Shown here one piece after another: positions 9,360-47,900 of a stretch of 64,000 bases of DNA. The notes beneath the pieces were generated by a model. That model did no database searches. It saw nothing but the letters and a program-made list of their open reading frames with translations, and was not told the DNA's origin. Both the position numbers and the translations under genes were made by a program. Location: assembly GCF_020085105.1 (NCBI RefSeq), contig NC_058063.1, positions 14,702,762 through 14,766,761 on the forward strand, given 5' to 3'. Within the stretch, counting starts at the first letter, position 1; the number at the start of each line of letters is the position of its first letter. This stretch comes from Siniperca chuatsi. Its lineage: Eukaryota; Chordata; Actinopteri; Centrarchiformes; Sinipercidae.

Positions 9360-10330
9360 GATGAAAAACAATACCATTCTGGCCTTTCATTTGATCCAAG
9401 CAAAGCATTTGATACAGTTGATCATACTCATTTCCTTCACTTTCACTTTGCACATTTCGTCTTGATAACACTGCAGTTTCCTGGTTTAGGAACTACCTTA
9501 CTGTTAGATATCAAGCTGGATTGTCAAGCTTGTCAAGAAGTCCTCCAAATTAAACTGTAAAATTGTCCATGTCCTCTAGAATGACACACAGAAGTGTTTT
9601 CTGATCTGACGCCCCTATCGCCAAACCATTACAAATCACTTTTGAAAAAGAAAATAACACTGACTGTCGAACAATAGTCTCCTGTATCAAAGTCCGATGT
9701 TTTGTTAACCCATCCATCCACCTCAACCTCCCCCCATGCAGAATTTGTCGTTCCATAATAATGTCACCTGACTTCCTCCTTTGAGGGCTTCCTCCTAGAG
9801 GGCTTCATCACTTGAATGTAAACATATGTTGTTTTGAGGCGCGTGCTGAAATGAATGTTGCTGTAGTTCTTCTTCGAGGACAGTCTCATATTTGTTAAAG
9901 GTGTGTTGTTTGATTTCTTAAGGATCTGTAAAGGCGTTCCTTACTGGTCTGTTCTAGGGCCTCTGCTGCTCACTCTATACATTAAATATATCTGTTCCTC
10001 TGTAAAATTTTCTAAATATAATTTTTATGCAGATGATACAATTTTGTATACAGTCATTGGCAATATTCAATCTACATCCCGGTTTTCAGGTCTTACAACA
10101 AGCTCATACTGGTCTCAGTCTGGCATTAAATGCAAAAAAACAAAAAAAAACAAGCGTGCCTCATTATGGAGGATCCTAAATTCAAAACAGAGCTCAGGAA
10201 AAAGGCATTTAAATGTTTTGCACTCAGATGGAATAAACCTCTGCAGGAAGCTGGATCACCTGATTTCTTTGGAAGGTTTAAAAATGTTAACCATTGACTA
10301 TTCCTGTACATGCGATGGTTAGATCTGGGT
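9360..10330 (+). mobile_element. Decayed LINE reverse transcriptase (L2/CR1/Rex1-like)
   Basis: Conceptual translation gives DPSKAFDTVDHT at about 9390-9425 (RT motif A region), RLDNTAVSWFRNYLTVRYQ at about 9457-9514, then GVPYWSVLGPLLLTLYI (normally GVPQGS) and YADDTILY at about 10026-10055, the catalytic motif. The parts lie in different frames, are separated by unrelated sequence and contain stops, so this is an inactive remnant. The order matches non-LTR RTs of the L2/CR1/Rex group. Neither a 5' end nor a 3' tail could be placed. Confidence 0.8.
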
Positions 10331-22783: not shown

Positions 22784-23534
22784 GAGAGTGAGAGCAGGGA
22801 GCAGGTGGAGGAAAATCTAGAGAGATGGAGGTCTGCTCTGGAAAACAGAGGAATGAAGCTTAGACAGAATACATGTGTGTCAATGAGAGGGACCCAGGTG
22901 GAACGGTGAGGTTACAGGGAGCAGAGGTGAAGAAGGTGCAGGACTTTAAGTACTTATGGTCAACGGTTCAGAGCAATGGAGACTGTGGAAAAGAGGTGAA
23001 GAGGCGAGTGCAAGCAGGTTGGAACGGGTGGAGAAAAGTGTCAGGTGTTGTGTGATAAAAGAGTATCAGCAAGAATGAAAGGAAAGGTGTTCAAGTCGGT
23101 GGTGAGACCAGCGATGTCGTACAGCTTAGAGACAGTGGCACTGAAGAAAAGACAAGAGGCAGAGCTGGAGGTAGCAGAGCTTAAGATGTTGAGGTTCTCT
23201 CTGGGAGTGACGAGGACGGACAGGATCAGGAATGAGGACATCAGAGAGACAGCTCATGTTAGATGTTTCGGAGATAAAGTCAGAGAGGCCAGATTGAGGT
23301 GGTTTGGACATGTTCAGAGGAGAGACTGTGAATATATTGGTAGAAGGATGCTGAGGTTGGAGCTGCCAGGCAGGAGGTCTAGAGGAAGACCAAAGAGGAG
23401 ATTTATGGATGTAGTGAGAGAGGACATGAAGTTAATTGGTGTGAGTGAAGAGGATGCAGAGGGCAGGGTTAGATGGAGGCACATGATTCGCTGTGGCGAC
23501 CCCTGAAAGGGAACAGCCGAAAGGAAAAGAAGAA
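22784..23534 (+). mobile_element. 5'-truncated RTE-type non-LTR retrotransposon with intact target-site duplication
   Basis: Translation gives KKVQDFKYLWSTVQSNG, EVKRRVQAGWNGWRKVSG, then after a one-base frame slip near 23049 LCDKRVSARMKGKVFKSVV, ELKMLRFSLGVTRTDRIRNE, REARLRWFGHVQRR, RRSRGRPKRRFMDVVREDM and a CGDP end at about 23503. This is the typical C-terminus after the RT domain in this LINE group. It ends in a short noncoding tail (CCCCTGAAAGGGAACAGCCG then AAAGGAAAAGAAGAA). The RT catalytic core and endonuclease are absent, so the copy is dead on arrival. Matching 17-bp duplications on both sides show the exact insertion limits. Confidence 0.92.
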
Positions 23535-27077: not shown

Positions 27078-27083
27078 TTTATT
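27078..27083 (-). terminator. Candidate polyadenylation signal of smim20
   Basis: TTTATT on the plus strand reads AATAAA on the minus strand, about 480 bp after the smim20 stop codon. It is the first canonical hexamer I noticed in a suitable place. No transcript evidence is available, so the 3' end is a guess. Confidence 0.4.
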
Positions 27084-27560
27084 ATAATTTCCTTCAGGCT
27101 GCATACCAGAGCAAGGCTTTTGGAAATACAAAAGTTATGCCAAAATATCTAAGATGCACAAACAAAACATTACACAGTCCAGTGCCTTTTGTATCAACAG
27201 ATTGGCATGGAGCTCCCCCTTGTGGACAAAAGAGAACTAGCAGCACATCATCTACTATTTTTGGAAACTTGGAAGATGGGTGAACTGTGGTAGAAAGTAA
27301 ACCTTATGCTACTTGTCTCATGTTCATCACACTTCTTACAGATTTTTTTATGTCTGTCATCACAATGCATTACCCATTAAAGCAAATATTATATTAACAA
27401 GTCATTTAAAGAAGCATGTTTAATCACTTAACCAAAAAACACATTCTGGAAAGCATTCACTCACGCGCACACTAAGCATTCATCAAAAAGGCATTCTCTG
27501 TTCAAAGTCTTCATCAGCAGCAGTGTCTGGAATTAGTGCAGGGTTAGCTGTCATTGTTCA

Positions 27561-29065
27561 TCATTTTCCTGCAGGCTTGAATGGATCAGACCATATCTTC
27601 ACACCTTTAGGCAAAAAAATAAAACAAAACAGTGTCAGCATGTATGTAACTGCATTGCACCACGGTTAAGGCATTGACTTACACATAACAGAGTGCTCAC
27701 TGCTCTTACCACACCTGTTTCAACAGTATATGCAATTAAATCAAATTTCCATTTATCATACCTGAATACTTGAGTGTGGCTCACCATATAGAACAAAAAA
27801 GTGGGTGCCTATAGGTTTAAATTCAGTAAAACTTTTGTATATTTGGAGGGGAGTGACTATCAAAATTGTCCTTATATTGTAAACCCCATACATCTGGTGC
27901 TCCCTCAGTAAAACAAACAAGATATGTTTGTAAGTACTGCGCCAGACAAAAACAAAAAGGAAGCAAAACTGCATTAAGCCAGTCCATCTGTGTAGGATAG
28001 ACAAATGGTTGAGAGGTCTTTGAAAATTACATTAATATCCCATCAAAGAAAGTCCAATACATTCTGACTGATTGCAAAAATGTTATAAAAATTGTCTTGC
28101 TTGCTACTGGTGTATTTATTACAATGTTTTAGTCTACACAACCTTCATCAGGTATAAAATACACCCGTTGTGTAGTCTGAAACATCTACTATGCGCTCTT
28201 ACCCACAGGTTGAATATCTGCCTGGTTGACTCCTGCCCGGTTCATCTTTTGGACTTCTCCTAGCAAAGAGAGACAGTTTACTCAGAATATTTCAGCGGTC
28301 AAAATCAATGTCATGAACAAGATTTTCACATTGCAGCTTTATTGTTCTCTTTAGTCTTTATCCACAATCTGCTGTATGTCCTGACAATATCTTTCCATCT
28401 ATGCTGGCCAGAACTGGCTCAGACTACAAAGGCTGCCCAAAAGTGGAGTGGCTGTACCAGACATACAGTGAAACCACAACTATTTAGCTAAATTAATTTT
28501 CCTGGCATCACTCTGCCTTTGTCTTAGTTGGTTTAACTACATGTTTATGGTTTTGGAAAAGTGGAAAGGAAAACTCTGGGTGTCCAGTTAGAAACTCCTA
28601 TTGATTTCTTGCAAGTCTAGGTGGACAAGTTGGCCACATTTAGCGAGCTAAACAGTTTAGGTAAAAAGATTGAGAAACTGCCATAAAACAAAGGTTAGCT
28701 AACTTAAACTTGTAACGTTACTAACTCTAAACATCCTATTAGCCAGCTAGATAGCTAGCTAGCGAGATAAAACTACTAGCTCTAGCTTAGTTAATTTTTC
28801 GCCAAATAAAGCAACACTTAGCTTAGCTGTAGCTGGAAAGAATTAGCACAATGCAAAAATCTTTATGCACCGCAATATACTAAATGACATTGAGCTAGAC
28901 ACTGTAAACTGTCTGACTGTGAAACTGAAATTTTAGGAAAGCTATTAGCCACTTACTGTACTCATCTTTATGCGTGAGAGGGTAGAAAAATATGGGGTAA
29001 AAAGCAGCGGCAACAGCCGTTACAAAGCCTCCAAATACCAATGCTATTTTCCTATTTTTTGACAT
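27561..29065 (-). CDS. smim20: Small integral membrane protein 20 (MITRAC7 / phoenixin precursor)
   Basis: Three coding exons on the minus strand: 29065-28957, 28259-28203 and 27604-27561. Donors are A|GTAAGT and G|GTAAGA, acceptors CTAG|GAG and AAAG|GTG, and phase is kept throughout. The product is 69 residues (human SMIM20 has 67). It starts MSKNRKIALVFGGFV, has one hydrophobic segment at about residues 7-30, then NRAGVNQADIQPVG and ends VKIWSDPFKPAGK. The N-terminal membrane segment and the AGxxQxDxQPxGxKxWSDPF block are diagnostic of SMIM20, a mitochondrial inner-membrane protein that stabilises newly made COX1 during cytochrome c oxidase assembly. In mammals the C-terminal 14-20 residues are also the peptide phoenixin. 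Here the amide-donor Gly after SDPF is replaced by Lys. The ATG has A at -3. The gene lies head to head with man2b2, and every exon is too small for a simple ORF scan. Identification is by recalled family motifs; no search was run. Confidence 0.93.
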
Positions 29066-29312
29066 TTTAATGTAACATCGGATGTGACACCCTCACCTCC
29101 AAATGTACACAGTGTTTACAGTAATTGTTTCCGGTGTAAAGGTCCTTGCCAAAACCACGCGTTAACAAAAGCGGCGTCAAATTAGTTTGTTTTTTCTGGG
29201 CTTCCGTAGTGAATAAAATTTGAGTCACATGCTGCAGCACAACAATAATAAGGAAGTCTGGGGGAAGATTTGAGAAGTTATTTAACGCTTCTCTTCTTTC
29301 ACGGGCCAAAAA
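29066..29312. promoter_or_regulatory. Shared bidirectional promoter of smim20 and man2b2
   Basis: The 247 bp between the two divergent start codons must hold both 5' UTRs and both core promoters. I see no TATA box in a sensible place. CpGs are scattered (CCGG, ACGCG, GCGGCG near 29130-29175) and there are GGAAG/CTTCC cores that fit ETS factors, which are common in bidirectional promoters of mitochondrial genes. GTCACATGCT at 29224-29233 is an E-box matching 8 of 10 positions of the TFEB/MITF lysosomal CLEAR element (GTCACGTGAC), which would suit the lysosomal gene man2b2. The geometry is seen directly; factor assignments are inference. Confidence 0.65.
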
Positions 29313-32300
29313 ATGCGATTTTTAGTGTTTGTGTTTTTTCTTTGTTGCTGTTTGTCGTATGGCGTGACCGGCGAAAACAAGCCAATTCAAACATATGTAA
29401 TCCCTCACAGTCACATGGATGTTGGCTGGGTGTACACTATTCAGGTAGGTTTCTGTCACCATATTCTTAATAAGTTGTTAAACTTGACAAGCATATAGTG
29501 TACACCATGCTCTTTCCTTTCACCAAATCACTGTTACCCAATTAATGTGGATGAATGTATAGATTTTACATAATGTATAGTGACTATTTTCCATAGGAGA
29601 GTATGCATGCTTATGCAGCCAATGTGTACACCAGTGTGACTGAGGAGCTGTCAAAGGCTGAAGACCGCAGGTTCATCGCTGTGGAGCAAGAGTTCTTTCG
29701 ACTGTGGTGGGATACTGTGGCCACAGACTCCCATAAGAGACAAGTAAGGACACACGATGGGTCAATACTCTGTACTGACATAAAATAGTGCAAGATAGTA
29801 TGGATAAATCACCTATAAGCTAAATATTCTTAAATGGGTACTCCCGTATTGCACTTTCATAAAGTTTGGGAACTTACAAGAAACAGATTGCTAAAACAGT
29901 GGTCAAAATCAATGCAGCGGAGGTGGAGATATCCCGATTTTAGTGCCTGCTTTTACAGGCTGAGTAGTTCTTCTCATGACAAGTGAACTGATCTTCATGT
30001 GTAAAATTGTTGGAGTGACCCTTTAAATACACAGTAAATAATAAACATGTTATGGCTTGGTTGGCTTTCTAGGTGCAACAGCTTGTGAAAGAGGGTCGAC
30101 TTGAGTTCATCATCGGGGGCCAAGTGATGCACGACGAGGCTGTAACAGATCTAGATGATGAGATATTACAAATGACAGGTAGTACAACACATTTCGTGCC
30201 AGTTTGTCAGTTTGAAGAAGAGATATGTAGTAGCCTTTGTTTTCTCTTGCTCTGTGTGTCTCTGTGCTGTTTCAGAGGGACACGGTTTCCTCTACGAGAC
30301 GTTCGGGGTTCGCCCTCAGTTTTCCTGGCAGGTGGATCCATTTGGAGCCTCTGCCACCACGCCGGTCCTCTTTGCCCTGGCTGGGTTCAACGCCCACCTT
30401 ATATCCCGCATTGACTATGACCTCAAAGACACCATGCAGAAAAACAAGGTATTAGTTGACGCCTCAGTCCAAAAACTACTGCCATCAGTAAAGAGAAGAA
30501 CATTCACAAATTGTATAAATGTCAGCACAGATCATGTTGACAACCCAAAGAACACATTTATTTTGAGTTGTTCTTATACACTTTCATCAAAAAAGGTACA
30601 TTGTCATTTAATCTGTATACTTAATTTACTACTTTGAAATTGTACTGAATAGTTACTGCATGTTGTTTATCTATTATTTTGGTACAGAAACTACAGTTTG
30701 TATGGAGAGGTTCTCCCTCTTTAAAAGAAAAGCAGCAGATCTTCACTCACACTATGGACCAGTTTAGCTATTGCACCCCATCATACCTGCCTTTCTCCAA
30801 CAGGTAGTCCACGTTTAGAATCTTTATTGGTTCATGTCATGTTCCCTATTTCTGTAATGAATCACCATCTACTGTAAATTACTAGTAATGTATTAAGAAA
30901 GTTGGTAACAGACAGAAGGGCCTTGAACTACTAATTTTAATTTACCATAATTCCATATCCATATTGATAAAATTAGTATAACTGAATAGACAAACAGATT
31001 TTTCATTAAAAGCAAACATGTTCTTACATCGCAGCTCTGGTTTCTATTGGAATGGAGTTGCCTTGTTCCCCGATCCCCCTAAAAACGGAGTTTACCCCAA
31101 CATGAGCCTGCCTGTCAGCAAGGAGACAGTACACGCCTACGCCAAGACTATGGTGGAGAACATCAAGCAGAGGGCTGCATGGTTTAGGACGAACCATGTG
31201 CTCTGGCCATGGGTGAGTAAATAGAAACTTGTTATCCTTTTATTCAGAGTCAAAGCCACTGGAGTATTTGTATCCAGGGTCCTGCAATTAAGGGTTTTTT
31301 TTTAATTGAAAGTAGTTCCTTTGTTTTAAGTGGATGTTATGTAAGTGTTGGTTGATGGCTGAGAAGCATCAGTTTTTTAATTTTTTTTTTTTCAACATAC
31401 CCTTACTTGTGTACATGTGTACCTAATTAGTAGATGAACATGTAAATAACATCCCCTGCACTATCCTCCTGTTTCAGGGCTGTGACAAACAGTTCTACAA
31501 CTCATCTGTCCAGTTCAACAACATGGATCCTCTAATGAAGTACATAAACCAGAACAGCAAAGAGTTTGGGGTGACAGTCCAGTATGCCACTCTTAGTGAA
31601 TACTTCCAAGCCATCTACCAATCAAATCTTGTCTGGGAGCTCCGTGGGAGTGAAGATTTTCTACCATATTCCACTGGTGTGAATCTGTATCCTAAAACAT
31701 AATATAAAGAAAATGAGGCACAGTCCAACACACGTTTCTTGTTGATATCATCTACTTTGGCTGATGTGTTTTATTTCCTAGAACCGTACCAGGCATGGAC
31801 GGGGTTTTACACCTCCAGAAATGTTCTGAAAGGAGTGGCACGACGGGCCAGTTCCCAGCTGCAGGCAGCGGAGACTCTTTTCACCCGGTACCGACTCAGC
31901 TTCCCTGACGGACCTGTAGCTAAAGACTGGGCCCTGGACAAACTGAGGGCGCTTCGCTGGGCTGTCTCAGAGGTCATTTGTCAAAATATTTGAGTCCTTT
32001 AACAGAAAATAAAGGAAATTAAATATGTTCGTGGTCAAATATGTGATAAAGATGAGAAAAGTATGTGTTTGTCATATAGATATTTGACTTTCAGATGTGT
32101 TTCAGATTAACATAAATCATTAGTTTGATTTTAATGCAAAATGTTATTTACTGGTGTGTGTTTTTAGGTTCAGCACCATGATGGCATCACTGGCACCGAG
32201 TCTCCCAAGGTGGCAGACATGTACCTGCAGCATCTCATGCAGGCCATGATGGGAGTGGAGGAGCTTCTGGCTGCACTCTTCCTGCTACCCCACAACCTCA

Positions 32301-38853: not shown

Positions 38854-41800
38854 ATGAGCAGTGTAAGTTGTTTCCCTCATAATGTGCTGTTTTCTCAGCT
38901 GCAGGATTTTGAATTAGGAATCGGAATCGAAAGATTGTGTTTGAAGCGAGTCGGCCTCATGCATTTTGTTGCATGTAATGGCACGCTTTACACTCCATCT
39001 CTGCATTATCCCTTATTTTGCATCGCTTAATATAACTAGTTAAGTCTTTATTGTCGATAGAGATGCGGGATGCTGCGAGGAGGCGTTGCATGTGTTGCTA
39101 GGATACTAGACTGGGAGGGGGCTGATGGGGCTCCCTAAGGTGCTGGAGGATTTTAGGTCAGGATTGAGGACGATTTAGCTGTAATGCTTTTTTAAATTGT
39201 TTTTTATCTTACATGAATATCTTCCCACCCTGACTACGTGTAAATAGAAAAGAGAGAGGGAGCAGAGGAGGAAACTGCAGCACTTTCTAAGTGACCTGGC
39301 TTTACTTGGGTCATTACAGGTCAGTGAATGCACATCCAGAGAAGATTAAACACACACATTTAAGAGTCACACTGTTTCTTGCAAATAATCTTGTTTCTGT
39401 TACAGGGATTTAAATACTTCCAGCCTTGGCTCAGAGGGAAAGAAGAGTTGCTGCTGACAGTTGTTAATGAGGATCTGGTTAGTTTCTGTACAGACAGAAA
39501 AACACATTCAGTACATCTTAATAAACACACAGCTTAGGAGCCAAAGAAACTGAATGAATACTACACATTTTCGGCAAAAAGTGTGCTAGAAAATAAACAA
39601 AGTCCTTGGATTTATGAACTATAATACTATGCACAGAATGCTGCTTGGTTTGACTGACTGAGTGACTGCAGGAATGACCCTGTCCTGTCCCGCAGGGTTG
39701 GCGTTCCCCAGGTTTTGTGGTGTCCAGAGCCTCCTCCTATGCCTCCACCAGCAGCTGTAACAGCAGTGATGTCTCCCCCAGCAGCAGCTCCCCCAGCCTG
39801 GACAGCCGGAGCAGCTCTCCCCTGCCTGGGGAGCCCCCGGGCCCACGAGACCCCCAGTCACAGCACACACACACCAAGCCGCAGCAGCCACAGACTGCCA
39901 GGTGACTGATGCCACTTTGTGTGACTGCAAATAGCAACATGTATGTACTGTATATGTGTTTAGTTTCAGGGAAGCTCTTGATGTTTGTGACATTTTCAAA
40001 TGTATTAAGTTATCTCATATTTGTGATGTTTTCATATCTGAAATTGGGCAGCAGCTTTATGAAGTAGCATGCTGGCATCCACTGTTGCATCACTTCCTGT
40101 TAGTGCTGTACAAAACAAATCAAAATAGTATGTTTTTATTGATGTGAGCTGTGGCTTTTTTTTTTTTTTTACATTGACTGTAAAGTGAAAATATGATAAG
40201 ATAAGCCTTTATTGATCCCCAGAGGGGAAATTCAGTTGTTGCAGCAGCACAAGGACAGAAATAAGTACAGAGAAATAGAGAAAGTAAATAATAAATAATA
40301 AAAGGTATATAAAACTAAAATAAGAACAGAAGTAAAAACTATACAAGAGCCATTCAAGACAAAATTACAAGGAAAAGTGTCAGTGGTGTGATTAATAGCA
40401 GCAAGTCAGCAAGTCCACTATATGTAAATAGCTACACCAGACTAATATACAACTAAGGAATGATATTGATTGTTTGTCTGTATTTATATAGAAATATAAT
40501 ATATATTGTAATAGACAGCATAACATAATATAGTACAGTATAATATAGTATGAAATATAAGATATAGAATAAGGTGAAATGTAGTAATATAGTATAACAT
40601 AATATATGGTATAGTACAGCAATATAACATAAAATATCAAATGTAATATAGTATAGTATAATAAATATAGTATAATATATAACAAAATATATAAATCAGT
40701 CCAACAGAGAGACAATGGAGAGGGAGGGTAGTGTGTCCCGAGTGTAGTGTCCGCAGACACTGTGGAAACTGGGTGCGTGTGTGTGTTGTATGTGTGTTTG
40801 TGGTTTGGAGAGGGACAGGCATCCTGGTCAAAGTGACTGGCATAGTCTATTAGCATATAAAATGATGAGCAAGCCACTATCATGACGCCTTGATGCAGTA
40901 ATTATGCAGCCTAGAATTAGCTAACATTGCCCAGCTGGTGTGACAAGCAGAATGGTTCCACTCGGTCACTATAGTGCTGAAGATCAATCAGTCAATCGAC
41001 AGCTGTTTTAATAATCGATTCATAGTTTAAAGATTTGGTCAAGCAAGAAAGCCAAACATTTGGTGATTGCAGATTATCATTTGCTGATTTTCTCAATTTC
41101 ATATCATTGTAATGTGTTTTATAATGTCCATTCTTCACATGTATTTCTATGGGACACACAGATGTAACCCTGCAACATACTTGTGACAGCTCTCCAGGGC
41201 CATCAAACTCATGTGATAAACTTATAATGTCTTGCGTGCGGATACTTTAGTGTCCTCAGGGACCCCAGCAGTGAGGAGCACCTTCTCCCAGCCTCTCCCA
41301 GTGAAAGAGAGATAGCAGTGCCTGTAAGTGCTTAAGCCAGTCTTACTTTTTTCCAAAGCCAAGTGTCTGACAGTGAGACACGTTTTTCAGAAAGCCAGTC
41401 CTGTTCCACCTCTAACCCCACACTCACAGCCTTCACTTTGCCCCTCAACAGGAGGTGAATTGCACTCTGTTTTTACTGGCCGGCTACGTCAAGTACGGAC
41501 GCCCCTACGCCTGGATACGCTCCAATCACGAGCGCCTGGTCAACATTGGAGGCACAGATTCGATGGTCAAGGACACGCCCATGAAACTCAAGTCCATCGC
41601 AGACTGGCAGACACGAGGTATGGAAACAATGTGAGGAATACAAACAGGAGAAAGTTATTGTTTCACTGCACTGATTCAATAATTACACCATTTTCCATGA
41701 GCTAAATCAGACACAGATGTCTTTGCTTGAGTTTAACCTTCTTAGAGACTACTGTGTGCTGTGGATTGGGTTTGTGGAAATAGCTCTAGGTGGTTGAAAA

Positions 41801-42462
41801 AATGTCTATACACTGCCAGACTTATACAAATGTTTATTACAAGTTCAGAAAAATGTTTTTCTGTCTTGATGTCGCCTTGTGTTATTTTTTTTTTTTCCAG
41901 GTATTCATGTGTGGGACGTCGTCAGTGAGCTGGTGTGCCTGTGCACCGTTCCCTCTCCTTCCAACCCTTTCGCCCTGGACATGCGTTACATCAAAAGTCT
42001 TCCCCTGCCTGACCTCTTCCTCGTCACAGGCGCTCTCCTCAACTTCCTGGAGATGTACGTGGTTTACGGAAACCGGGACGAGTTGCACTATGACAAAGGT
42101 AGGAGTTTTTTTAATTTTATGGTTTCACAGACTGCTACTTGTCAAGATTTTGTCCCACAGAAAGTTATAGAGAAAGACTTGTGGTGATTTTAATGCACTA
42201 TTATTATTGAAGCCAGCAGGTGATGCTGTTTAGCTACATGACAAAGGGATGAGCCTTGCAGCCTAGCCTTTCTCCCAATCTGCACTTTGAATTTTAAGGC
42301 ATCAATGAACGTTTTTGATGATCTCCTCTCCTTCCAGTGGTAGAGGAGGTGAGGCCTCTGAGGCGTCTCCATGTCCATTCCCTGCTGGAGTTGCAGCGAC
42401 ACAGAGAGAGCTCCAGATTGGCCAGCAGTCCCACGGCGCAGGACTCTTCTGGAGAAGAGTGA
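38854..42462 (+). CDS. Conserved protein of unknown function, 282 residues
   Basis: Seven coding exons: 38854-38862, 39406-39477, 39696-39901, 41251-41323, 41452-41617, 41901-42098 and 42338-42462. All have GT..AG borders and phase is kept, giving 849 nt with the TGA stop. The first coding exon holds only Met-Ser-Ser. This ATG is chosen because an in-frame TAG lies at 38821-38823, no other ATG intervenes, and -3 is A. Residues 4-30 begin GFKYFQPWLRGKEELLLTVV. Residues about 37-120 are Ser/Pro-rich and probably disordered. Residues 121-240 look like a folded domain, with NCTLFLLAGYVKYGRPYAWI, then VWDVVSELVCLC and a hydrophobic stretch LPDLFLVTGALLNFLEMYV. The tail is charged and ends SSGEE. 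There is no signal peptide and no clear transmembrane span. I do not recognise the family. Preserved frame over seven exons, clean splice sites and Ser/Pro coding bias argue for a real gene. Confidence 0.88.
40195..40420. mobile_element. LINE 3' tail fragment
   Basis: GATAAGATAAGCCTTTATTG followed by ATCCCCAGAGGGGAAATTCAG is the stereotyped end of a fish LINE/SINE family (reads GGGGATCAATAAAG on the other strand). It lies in intron 3 of the unknown gene and is followed by A-rich DNA. Confidence 0.65.
40495..40695. repeat. AT-rich degenerate TATAATATAG repeat
   Basis: About 200 bp of loosely repeated ATAATATAGTATAATATA words in intron 3 of the unknown gene. The 163-residue reverse open frame across it is a composition artefact. 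Confidence 0.75.
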
Positions 42463-44910: not shown

Positions 44911-47900
44911 TCAGTTCCAGCTGTCAGAGGCAGATCCTCTTCTGCTAATGCCCCTGAGGGGGCTGCGAGACACTGAGCCCCTCTTCTTCCAGCGAACTAA
45001 AAACACAAAGAGTCAGGGATGTTAGCTTGGCAGGTGCAACTGAAAAGTGAACATTGGTGTTTAAATGTTAATGATGAACATCTAACCAGCCCCAATAGTT
45101 TGTCAACCTTGATTCTAAAGTGTCCTAGTGAGGCTATTCATTTACTACTACCTACATCAGCCCTTGGTTTTCATTACTTTCACTAAATGTGCTTGCTTGA
45201 GTGGAACCTTTAGAAATCTTATCTTTCTAAACCACTTGGAGAGCAACAGAGGAGAGTATGATAAGGGCAATGAATCAGGGAAATGGTTTTTTATCGTAAA
45301 CCATAAAAAGGGCCTTTAGGTTTAGAAAAACTATTCTGCCCTACAAAAGGCAAAATGCCGTAGCTACATATTTGATCAAAATTGAGCCAAGACAAGAATC
45401 TGACTTTTTGACATCTGTTAAAAAAATATCAAACTTATTTTGTCATAAAAATGGGTAAAGAAACAGCATGTGAAAATTGCTGAACTAGAAAACAGTTAAA
45501 AACCAAACTGCAGTGACTGCACTCCCCCAAGTTCAGGCTAGCTGGGAAGATAGCCTTAGCTAAAACTAATTTTGTTTCCTCTAACTGAAAAATGCTCCAA
45601 CTTCTTAGTAATTGAGATTATTATACCACAAAAATAAGGCAGTAAATCTAATAACGGAGGAAAAAAGTAACACCAGATTAACTAGTCCTGCTAAATAAGG
45701 TAATTAGCCTAGCTTAGCAGAGTAGCAGCAACTGCCACCCCTGCAGCCTCTGACTCTGGTGGAATTCACATGATTTGATGTGGTCAAGCTACATTTAATG
45801 AAATACATTTAAATACTGGATTTAAAGATGTATTTATTAAACTAGCTCATTGGTTCAAATAGACAAGAAAGCTAAACAAGACGATAGAGTGCAGTATCTA
45901 AATGTTTTTGTAAAGTCTGACTGATTAATAATCATCATAAAAATGCATTCAAATATGATTTTACAACTTATAATCTGTCACAGTTTGGCTAAGAGCCTTC
46001 AAACTTCAACGTCAGTGTTTCTGTAGTTACTGCTCTCTGCCTTGATAAGGCAGTATTGTCACCTCACCTTTTCCCAGACTGGCAGGCAGCGTGGAGCTCT
46101 TCGTGTTGGCAGGAGAGTTGGATGACTCCTCCACTTGTTTCCCCTTCACCTCTCCTGGCTGCAGCGTGGCCGAACCGTCCTGCTGCCAGTCGCTCAGCGC
46201 CCGCTGGAAAGAATGTGCCAGACAAGCCGTCATGTCTCGTGCGCGCTCTGCCCGGCTGCACCAGAACACCCGACACTGCAGCTGCTGCCCCTGATGTTTG
46301 CAGATGTACAGGAAGACATTGGGCCGCTTGGCATCCGCAGCACAATACGCAATGTCCTGCAGGTACGTCTTAGTGAGCTGCCGACCTGTACTCAGTTCCT
46401 TGACCTCGACGTATCTCGGGCGCACCACCAGGGCGTGATCTTTGCTCAGTTTCTTCCCATTAGCAATACCTTCTAGCAAGTGGCTAATAGCGTCCTGTGC
46501 CTGCTCTCGATCCAGAGAGAAGATTTTCTCCGTGCCCAGGTAGTGGACCTTGAAGAGAGGGTCACCGTGGGATAAAGACTCTGTGCGGTCGCGCCGAAAG
46601 CGGCGACGTAGTGCAGCAGGAGAGTTCTTAAGAGTCTGCATGAGGTGAAATGTGCTGAGGGACATTGTACGTTTCAGGCTGGGTTTGGAGGAAATTTTAG
46701 CTGAGGTGTATCTGCCAGTGGTCAGCTGGTCCTCTTCAGAGCCTCTCCCACTCTTCCACCTTTCTTCTATAAATGGAGCGTAGTTGCATCCACTGCTTTT
46801 ATCTGAAATGAGGCAGACAGTGACGTTAGCAGATCCATTGCAAAGACACATAAATAATTGAGCAAGACAGATGCTTAATCTTTGTTCAGGAGTTAAATAA
46901 GGTAAAGGAGAGGGTACATCCTGGAAAGGGATTGTTTTGACACTGAGGATTTTCTTAGATATGAAGCAAATCTTCAGTTGTTACGGTTTTAGTGCAATCT
47001 CATGCTTTCAGCTCCTTAATGAGGAAAAAAAACAAAACAAAAAAACAGTGCAGTCAGCACAACTTGTGCCGCAGCGTGGAAAAACAAATGCTACCAAACA
47101 GGATCAGTTACAGAGGTGACGCATTCAGTGAGGAATATTCATTCACCACAGACACCAGCCATTAAATATTTACAGGTCAGGTTTGACAGCAGTGAATCCA
47201 TAAGAAACGTACAAACACACTGACGAACAGGAAATGTGCCAAAATAAAAAGGAAGGTTGCTTTGTGACACAAAAAGGTAATCACAGGTACAAATCCTTCT
47301 TTAAACTCACGCCAAGTATTACAAACACTTGTATCACCATACTATTAGTTACTGGAGTATTTAAAGGCTTCTGTGACCTTGTTAATTCAAGTCTTATGCA
47401 ACCTCCACATCTGGCCTCCCATTGTCTCCCATCCTCCAGACCCACAGAACTGCCTGTTCTCCATTGTGTTAATCTTTATTTTTTCCCCTCTCTCTTTTCT
47501 TGACCATTCTTTCAACATCCTAGCTCCGTCCTCAGAAGTGAGCTGCAGAGAGAACCACCGACTGTTCCAAGGTGGTGGCCATTGTTAGTCAAGCCTCCTG
47601 TGCAGGAAACAGCTTTGCATCCACCCACCCTAAATATTTCTCCTACAAACAATGACATGCTTTTGCGAGTGTGTCACATCACAGAAGGGATGCAAGTTGA
47701 CCTAAAGCCTAAGCCGACCCAGGACATGCACACATACAGTTACACGTGTGGATTACAACCATGTACACATACTGACAGACACACACACACACACAGCTTT
47801 CACTTGGAAACACACACACACACAGAGATATCTACCTATTTTGCATTAAACCAAGGCTACTGTACAACACTGGTTTTCCCTGTCACTGAGCACAAGGCTA

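Follow-up and report, generated by a model that had tools for sequence, protein, structure and literature searches.

A Siniperca chuatsi smim20 gene with lysine in place of the amidation glycine after the phoenixin SDPF core

The minus strand of a 64,000-nucleotide stretch of Siniperca chuatsi DNA (the window; C22:14702762-14766761 in an assembly of 718,788,923 bases and 65 contigs) holds a complete three-exon smim20 gene in which lysine directly follows the SDPF core; glycine with basic residues is absent at that site. As no glycine stands directly after the phenylalanine, an amide on that phenylalanine cannot form. With good confidence we regard the gene as an ordinary smim20 (MITRAC7), found once in the assembly, whose SDPF core is probably kept for COX1 assembly and whose tail gives no classical phoenixin amide.

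Results

Splicing and translation of the window yield a 210-bp frame ending in TGA that encodes the 69-residue protein MSKNRKIALVFGGFVTAVAAAFYPIFFYPLTHKDEYREVQKMNRAGVNQADIQPVGVKIWSDPFKPAGK. Coding exon 1 (28957..29065, minus strand, as are all parts of the gene) encodes MSKNRKIALVFGGFVTAVAAAFYPIFFYPLTHKDEY plus the first base of an arginine codon; it is defined by splicing and translation, hydropathy and a genome match, and includes the best hydrophobic 19-residue stretch of the protein (residues 7-25, Kyte-Doolittle mean 2.02). Intron 1 (28260..28956, 697 bp) and intron 2 (27605..28202, 598 bp), both phase 1 with GT..AG borders, enclose coding exon 2 (28203..28259; splicing and translation, genome match), which reads (R)EVQKMNRAGVNQADIQPV(G). 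Coding exon 3 (27561..27604, first base 27604) reads (G)VKIWSDPFKPAGK-stop, and joined to exon 2 it gives DIQPVGVKIWSDPFKPAGK. A first-pass annotation, made from the sequence alone, had read SDPF-KPAGK-stop at 27561..27604, an interval that equals this exon exactly, and the carboxy terminus is indeed DIQPVGVKIWSDPF-KPAGK-stop. The stop codon lies at 27563-27561 with a second in-frame TGA directly after it. By consensus match, AATAAA at 27078..27083 (minus strand, 478 bp past the stop) is a possible poly(A) signal, and ATTAAA, beginning at 27424, is a further one. Upstream of the core, a single Arg44 precedes AGVNQAD (MNR/AGVNQAD), the equivalent of the PNX-20 start, so that a basic residue is present there.

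Residues 2-58 match PF15061 (DUF4538; E 2.1e-25, score 88.6 bits, cut-off 27), the sole Pfam match at E up to 1; the profile stops before IWSDPF and thus gives no information on the tail. A search of solved structures with the protein returned no chains at E up to 10. The accessible text of PMC12069048 places SMIM20, from fish to mammals, ahead of RBPJ, CCKAR, TBC1D19, STIM2 and PCDH7 on its 3' side. RBPJ was the one gene of these five that we looked for, and an RBPJ-type domain (BTD, PF09270) lies on the same (minus) strand at C22:14659297-14660341, about 70 kb 3' of smim20. RBPJ-type loci also occur at two other places in the genome (C3:16925334-16925791 and C2:3017649-3021218), and the smim20 protein search matched the window locus only.

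The 5' side of smim20 faces an alpha-mannosidase gene on the plus strand, which we take to be MAN2B2. The two genes lie head to head across 29065-29313, with 247 bp between start codons and possibly a shared promoter; the alpha-mannosidase ATG was placed at 29313 by eye, and a GH38 N-terminal domain match covers 30073-30414. Elsewhere, 65 open frames were listed in the window, and 4 of the 10 scanned against Pfam gave a match. A 317-residue open frame at 46027-46980 (minus) carries a phosphotyrosine-interaction domain (PF14719, E 8.2e-12), and an exon-like open frame at 41870-42187 (plus) matches PF25377/DUF7886 (E 4.9e-19). Open frames at 23000-23506 and 9867-10322 (both plus) resemble, by eye, pieces of non-LTR retrotransposon reverse transcriptase, the second with YADDT. 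No tRNA was found in the window by ARAGORN with the bacterial code, and no Rfam family at gathering score.

A scan for W[ST]D[PA][FYW], SDPFG, SDPYG, DPFGRK and FG[RK][RK]-stop, run over the whole window on both strands in all frames, returned two matches, smim20 exon 3 and an unrelated FGKK-stop at 41357 (minus); neither SDPFG nor SDPYG occurs in any frame. The first-pass annotation had held that the classical SDPF-amide could not be made from this gene, and lysine in place of glycine after the phenylalanine bears this out. A sequencing error or frame slip behind the missing glycine was judged unlikely: turning AAG into any glycine codon takes two substitutions within one codon, and an insertion or deletion of one or two bases directly behind TTC produces no Gly-basic end.

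A second gene or an alternative exon that encodes an amidated SDPFG form would reconcile this tail with a classical hormone, and a published account that gives goldfish two smim20 genes, as far as its available text goes, lends the idea some precedent. When the 719-Mb assembly was searched with the smim20 protein, all three matches at E up to 1 were the gene's own exons (E 7.3e-17, 9.7e-4 and 0.178), in a search that scores best candidates only and an assembly that may be incomplete, so that a strongly diverged copy could escape; exon 3 alone reaches only E 0.178, and such a copy would therefore need to show through exon 1. The tail core, written as the degenerate DNA pattern Lys-[Val/Ile/Met]-Trp-Ser-like-Asp-Pro-[Phe/Tyr], had four exact matches genome-wide, one of them smim20 exon 3. 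The other three (on C4, C8 and at a second C22 site) read KIWSDPF-H, KMWSDPF-K and KIWCDPF-P. We take them as chance, since none resembles smim20 upstream, none has glycine next and the reversed pattern, run as a control, gave nine matches against four. The second SDPFG paralogue that the annotation proposed to look for was thus not found in the assembly, by protein search at E up to 1 or by exact DNA pattern. With a single smim20 locus, a window that encodes SDPFG or SDPYG in no frame and no exact genome match with glycine after K[VIM]WSDP[FY], a second amidated gene or exon is largely refuted for this assembly; it would have to lie in sequence absent from the assembly or have diverged strongly, and we give it almost no credence.

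The phoenixin-like peptide itself is well kept. Relative to human PNX-14, 10 of 14 positions agree by eye, the figure already given by the annotation; its description of the other four as conservative holds for three, position 5 having changed from Pro to Val. The window peptide is identical to zebrafish PNX-20 at 18 of 20 positions, to goldfish PNX20a and PNX20b at 17 of 20 each, to puffer PNX-14 at 12 of 14 and to the animal consensus core at 10 of 13.

The tail does hold a glycine further on. As it ends in Gly-Lys-stop, trimming of one lysine would expose that glycine and lead to a putative ...SDPFKPA-amide. A carboxypeptidase-trimmed glycine end is a substrate of the amidating enzyme, which is established chemistry, and this terminus needs carboxypeptidase trimming only. 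Lys65-Pro66 is a poor convertase site owing to the proline, so the KPAGK tail would tend to remain attached. With the arginine immediately before AGVNQAD, one can draw a route in which the precursor would enter the secretory pathway, be cut after Arg44, lose its last lysine to a carboxypeptidase and be amidated at glycine, giving AGVNQADIQPVGVKIWSDPFKPA-amide (23 residues; predicted monoisotopic mass 2435.296, [M+3H] 812.773) or a shorter form from Asp51. Published secretion predictors disagree on PNX precursors (PMC9004410). The newer signal-peptide programs find no signal peptide in them, the human one included (PMC9004410), and the zebrafish and fugu precursors are given in that paper as being without an amidation signature. 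On balance the extended amide is chemically possible but unlikely. Phoenixin literature under open licence (text without figures, hence weak evidence of absence) yielded no discussion of amidation at a Gly-Lys end instead. Of 18 papers there listed for SDPFK, SDPFG, SDPFE or SDPFD, PMC9004410 alone, with SDPFD, deals with phoenixin, judged by title and abstract. That fish with a Gly-Lys tail make such an extended ...SDPFKPA-amide, missed by an endocrinology that injects mammalian-style SDPF-amides, strikes us as a long shot.

Discussion

The absence of glycine after SDPF is not new. The annotation had correctly given the mammalian end as GRK, which agrees with the accessible text of PMC12069048 for mammals and birds, but it implied a loss that would be notable for a fish; in the portion of PMC9004410 available, citing Yosten 2013, the precursors of zebrafish, fugu, Xenopus and Silurana are already stated to lack the amidation signature. 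The same portion describes the signature as missing from most of the precursors studied there, the ancestral bilaterian form as probably non-amidated, and the PNX-14 region as better conserved than the rest of the protein in the species tested there, a choanoflagellate among them, with a consensus end of SDPFD and an amidation site that comes and goes. On that pattern, the window gene need not have lost anything.

What such a gene is kept for is best explained, in our judgement, by the mitochondrial protein. According to PMC7582755, human MITRAC7/SMIM20 is an assembly factor located in mitochondria that binds COX1, with too little of it leading to COX1 degradation and too much holding COX1 back. 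The fish product would likewise be a small single-pass mitochondrial protein that stabilizes freshly synthesized COX1 while cytochrome c oxidase is being assembled. The SDPF core of its tail would be retained for this role and the residues beyond it would be free to vary, which would account for the absence here of the glycine found in mammals and birds; any released peptide would then be something other than the classical phoenixin-14 or -20 amide. By analogy with the human protein we infer that its Siniperca chuatsi counterpart has this function and that the function is what places SDPF under selection. A tail that keeps its core but not its amidation site would be more in line with the mitochondrial function than with an amidated hormone, and helps to separate the two roles proposed for SMIM20. 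Of the two options left by the annotation, an extended amide or selection on the mitochondrial protein alone, inference and literature make the second the more likely. A similar caution comes from PMC8187511, which points out that the mitochondrial role may be what smim20 mRNA reports on.

Several reports count against a mitochondria-only account. Cleavage of the propeptide is stated as shown for the human precursor (PMC9004410), fish given PNX peptides by injection respond (PMC7156445, PMC9177834 and PMC12069048, as far as their available texts report), and in zebrafish liver cells knock-down of smim20 lowers vitellogenin mRNAs, which the authors read as a peptide effect. Human galanin, moreover, is active without an amide, so smim20 of Siniperca chuatsi may have a peptide role as well, exerted by a free acid or an extended form; a peptide that works without an amide would also be consistent with a conserved PNX-14 region. 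The corresponding proposal is a phoenixin that leaves the cell either as a free acid or with KPAGK still attached and needs no amidation to be active in fish, much as galanin needs none in humans, a comparison raised in PMC9004410 itself. The predicted [M+2H] values of such free acids are 1071.055 for the 20-mer and 800.922 for DIQPVGVKIWSDPF. The zebrafish study reported responses to AGVNQADIQPVGVKVWSDPY, which the window peptide matches at 18 of 20 positions, and its main text uses neither 'amidat' nor 'NH2'. Against this, the mammalian non-amidated form is described as inactive in the accessible parts of PMC7664650 and PMC12069048, and a clean SDPF acid would call for cleavage at Lys-Pro. 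GPR173, the receptor put forward for phoenixin and found by PMC9004410 in Bilateria only, did not respond to PNX-14 in that paper's assay, and its authors, in the text available, doubt the pairing. We therefore consider a hormone acting without its amide quite improbable, and favour the reading of the gene as a mitochondrial smim20.

These considerations bear on how fish phoenixin is studied. The puffer study injected DVQPVGMKIWSDPF-amide and the goldfish study PNX20a and PNX20b, both with NH2 ends, according to the parts of these reports available. Such SDPF-amides would not be obtainable from a gene with the window's tail. If a fish precursor cannot yield an SDPF-amide, injecting one would test a compound possibly foreign to that fish, and the case for phoenixin as a hormone of vertebrates in general would be weaker. 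PMC9004410 has already published both the variability of the amidation site and the reservations about the receptor, so the window gene adds one more example and a precise mass to search for.

Set beside known systems, the gene resembles SMIM20/MITRAC7 in its PF15061 match, its predicted hydrophobic segment near the amino terminus and its RBPJ-type linkage, and its three coding exons and two phase-1 introns are the SMIM20 layout described in PMC9004410; it differs in its tail, KPAGK where mammals and birds have GRK. With the mammalian phoenixin-14 and -20 amides it shares the W-S-D-P-F core and the arginine before AG, but not a glycine directly after the phenylalanine. Zebrafish PNX-20 ends in tyrosine whereas its equivalent here ends in phenylalanine, and the zebrafish and fugu precursors, by the statement of Yosten 2013 as cited in the accessible text of PMC9004410, are akin to the window gene in having no amidation signature.
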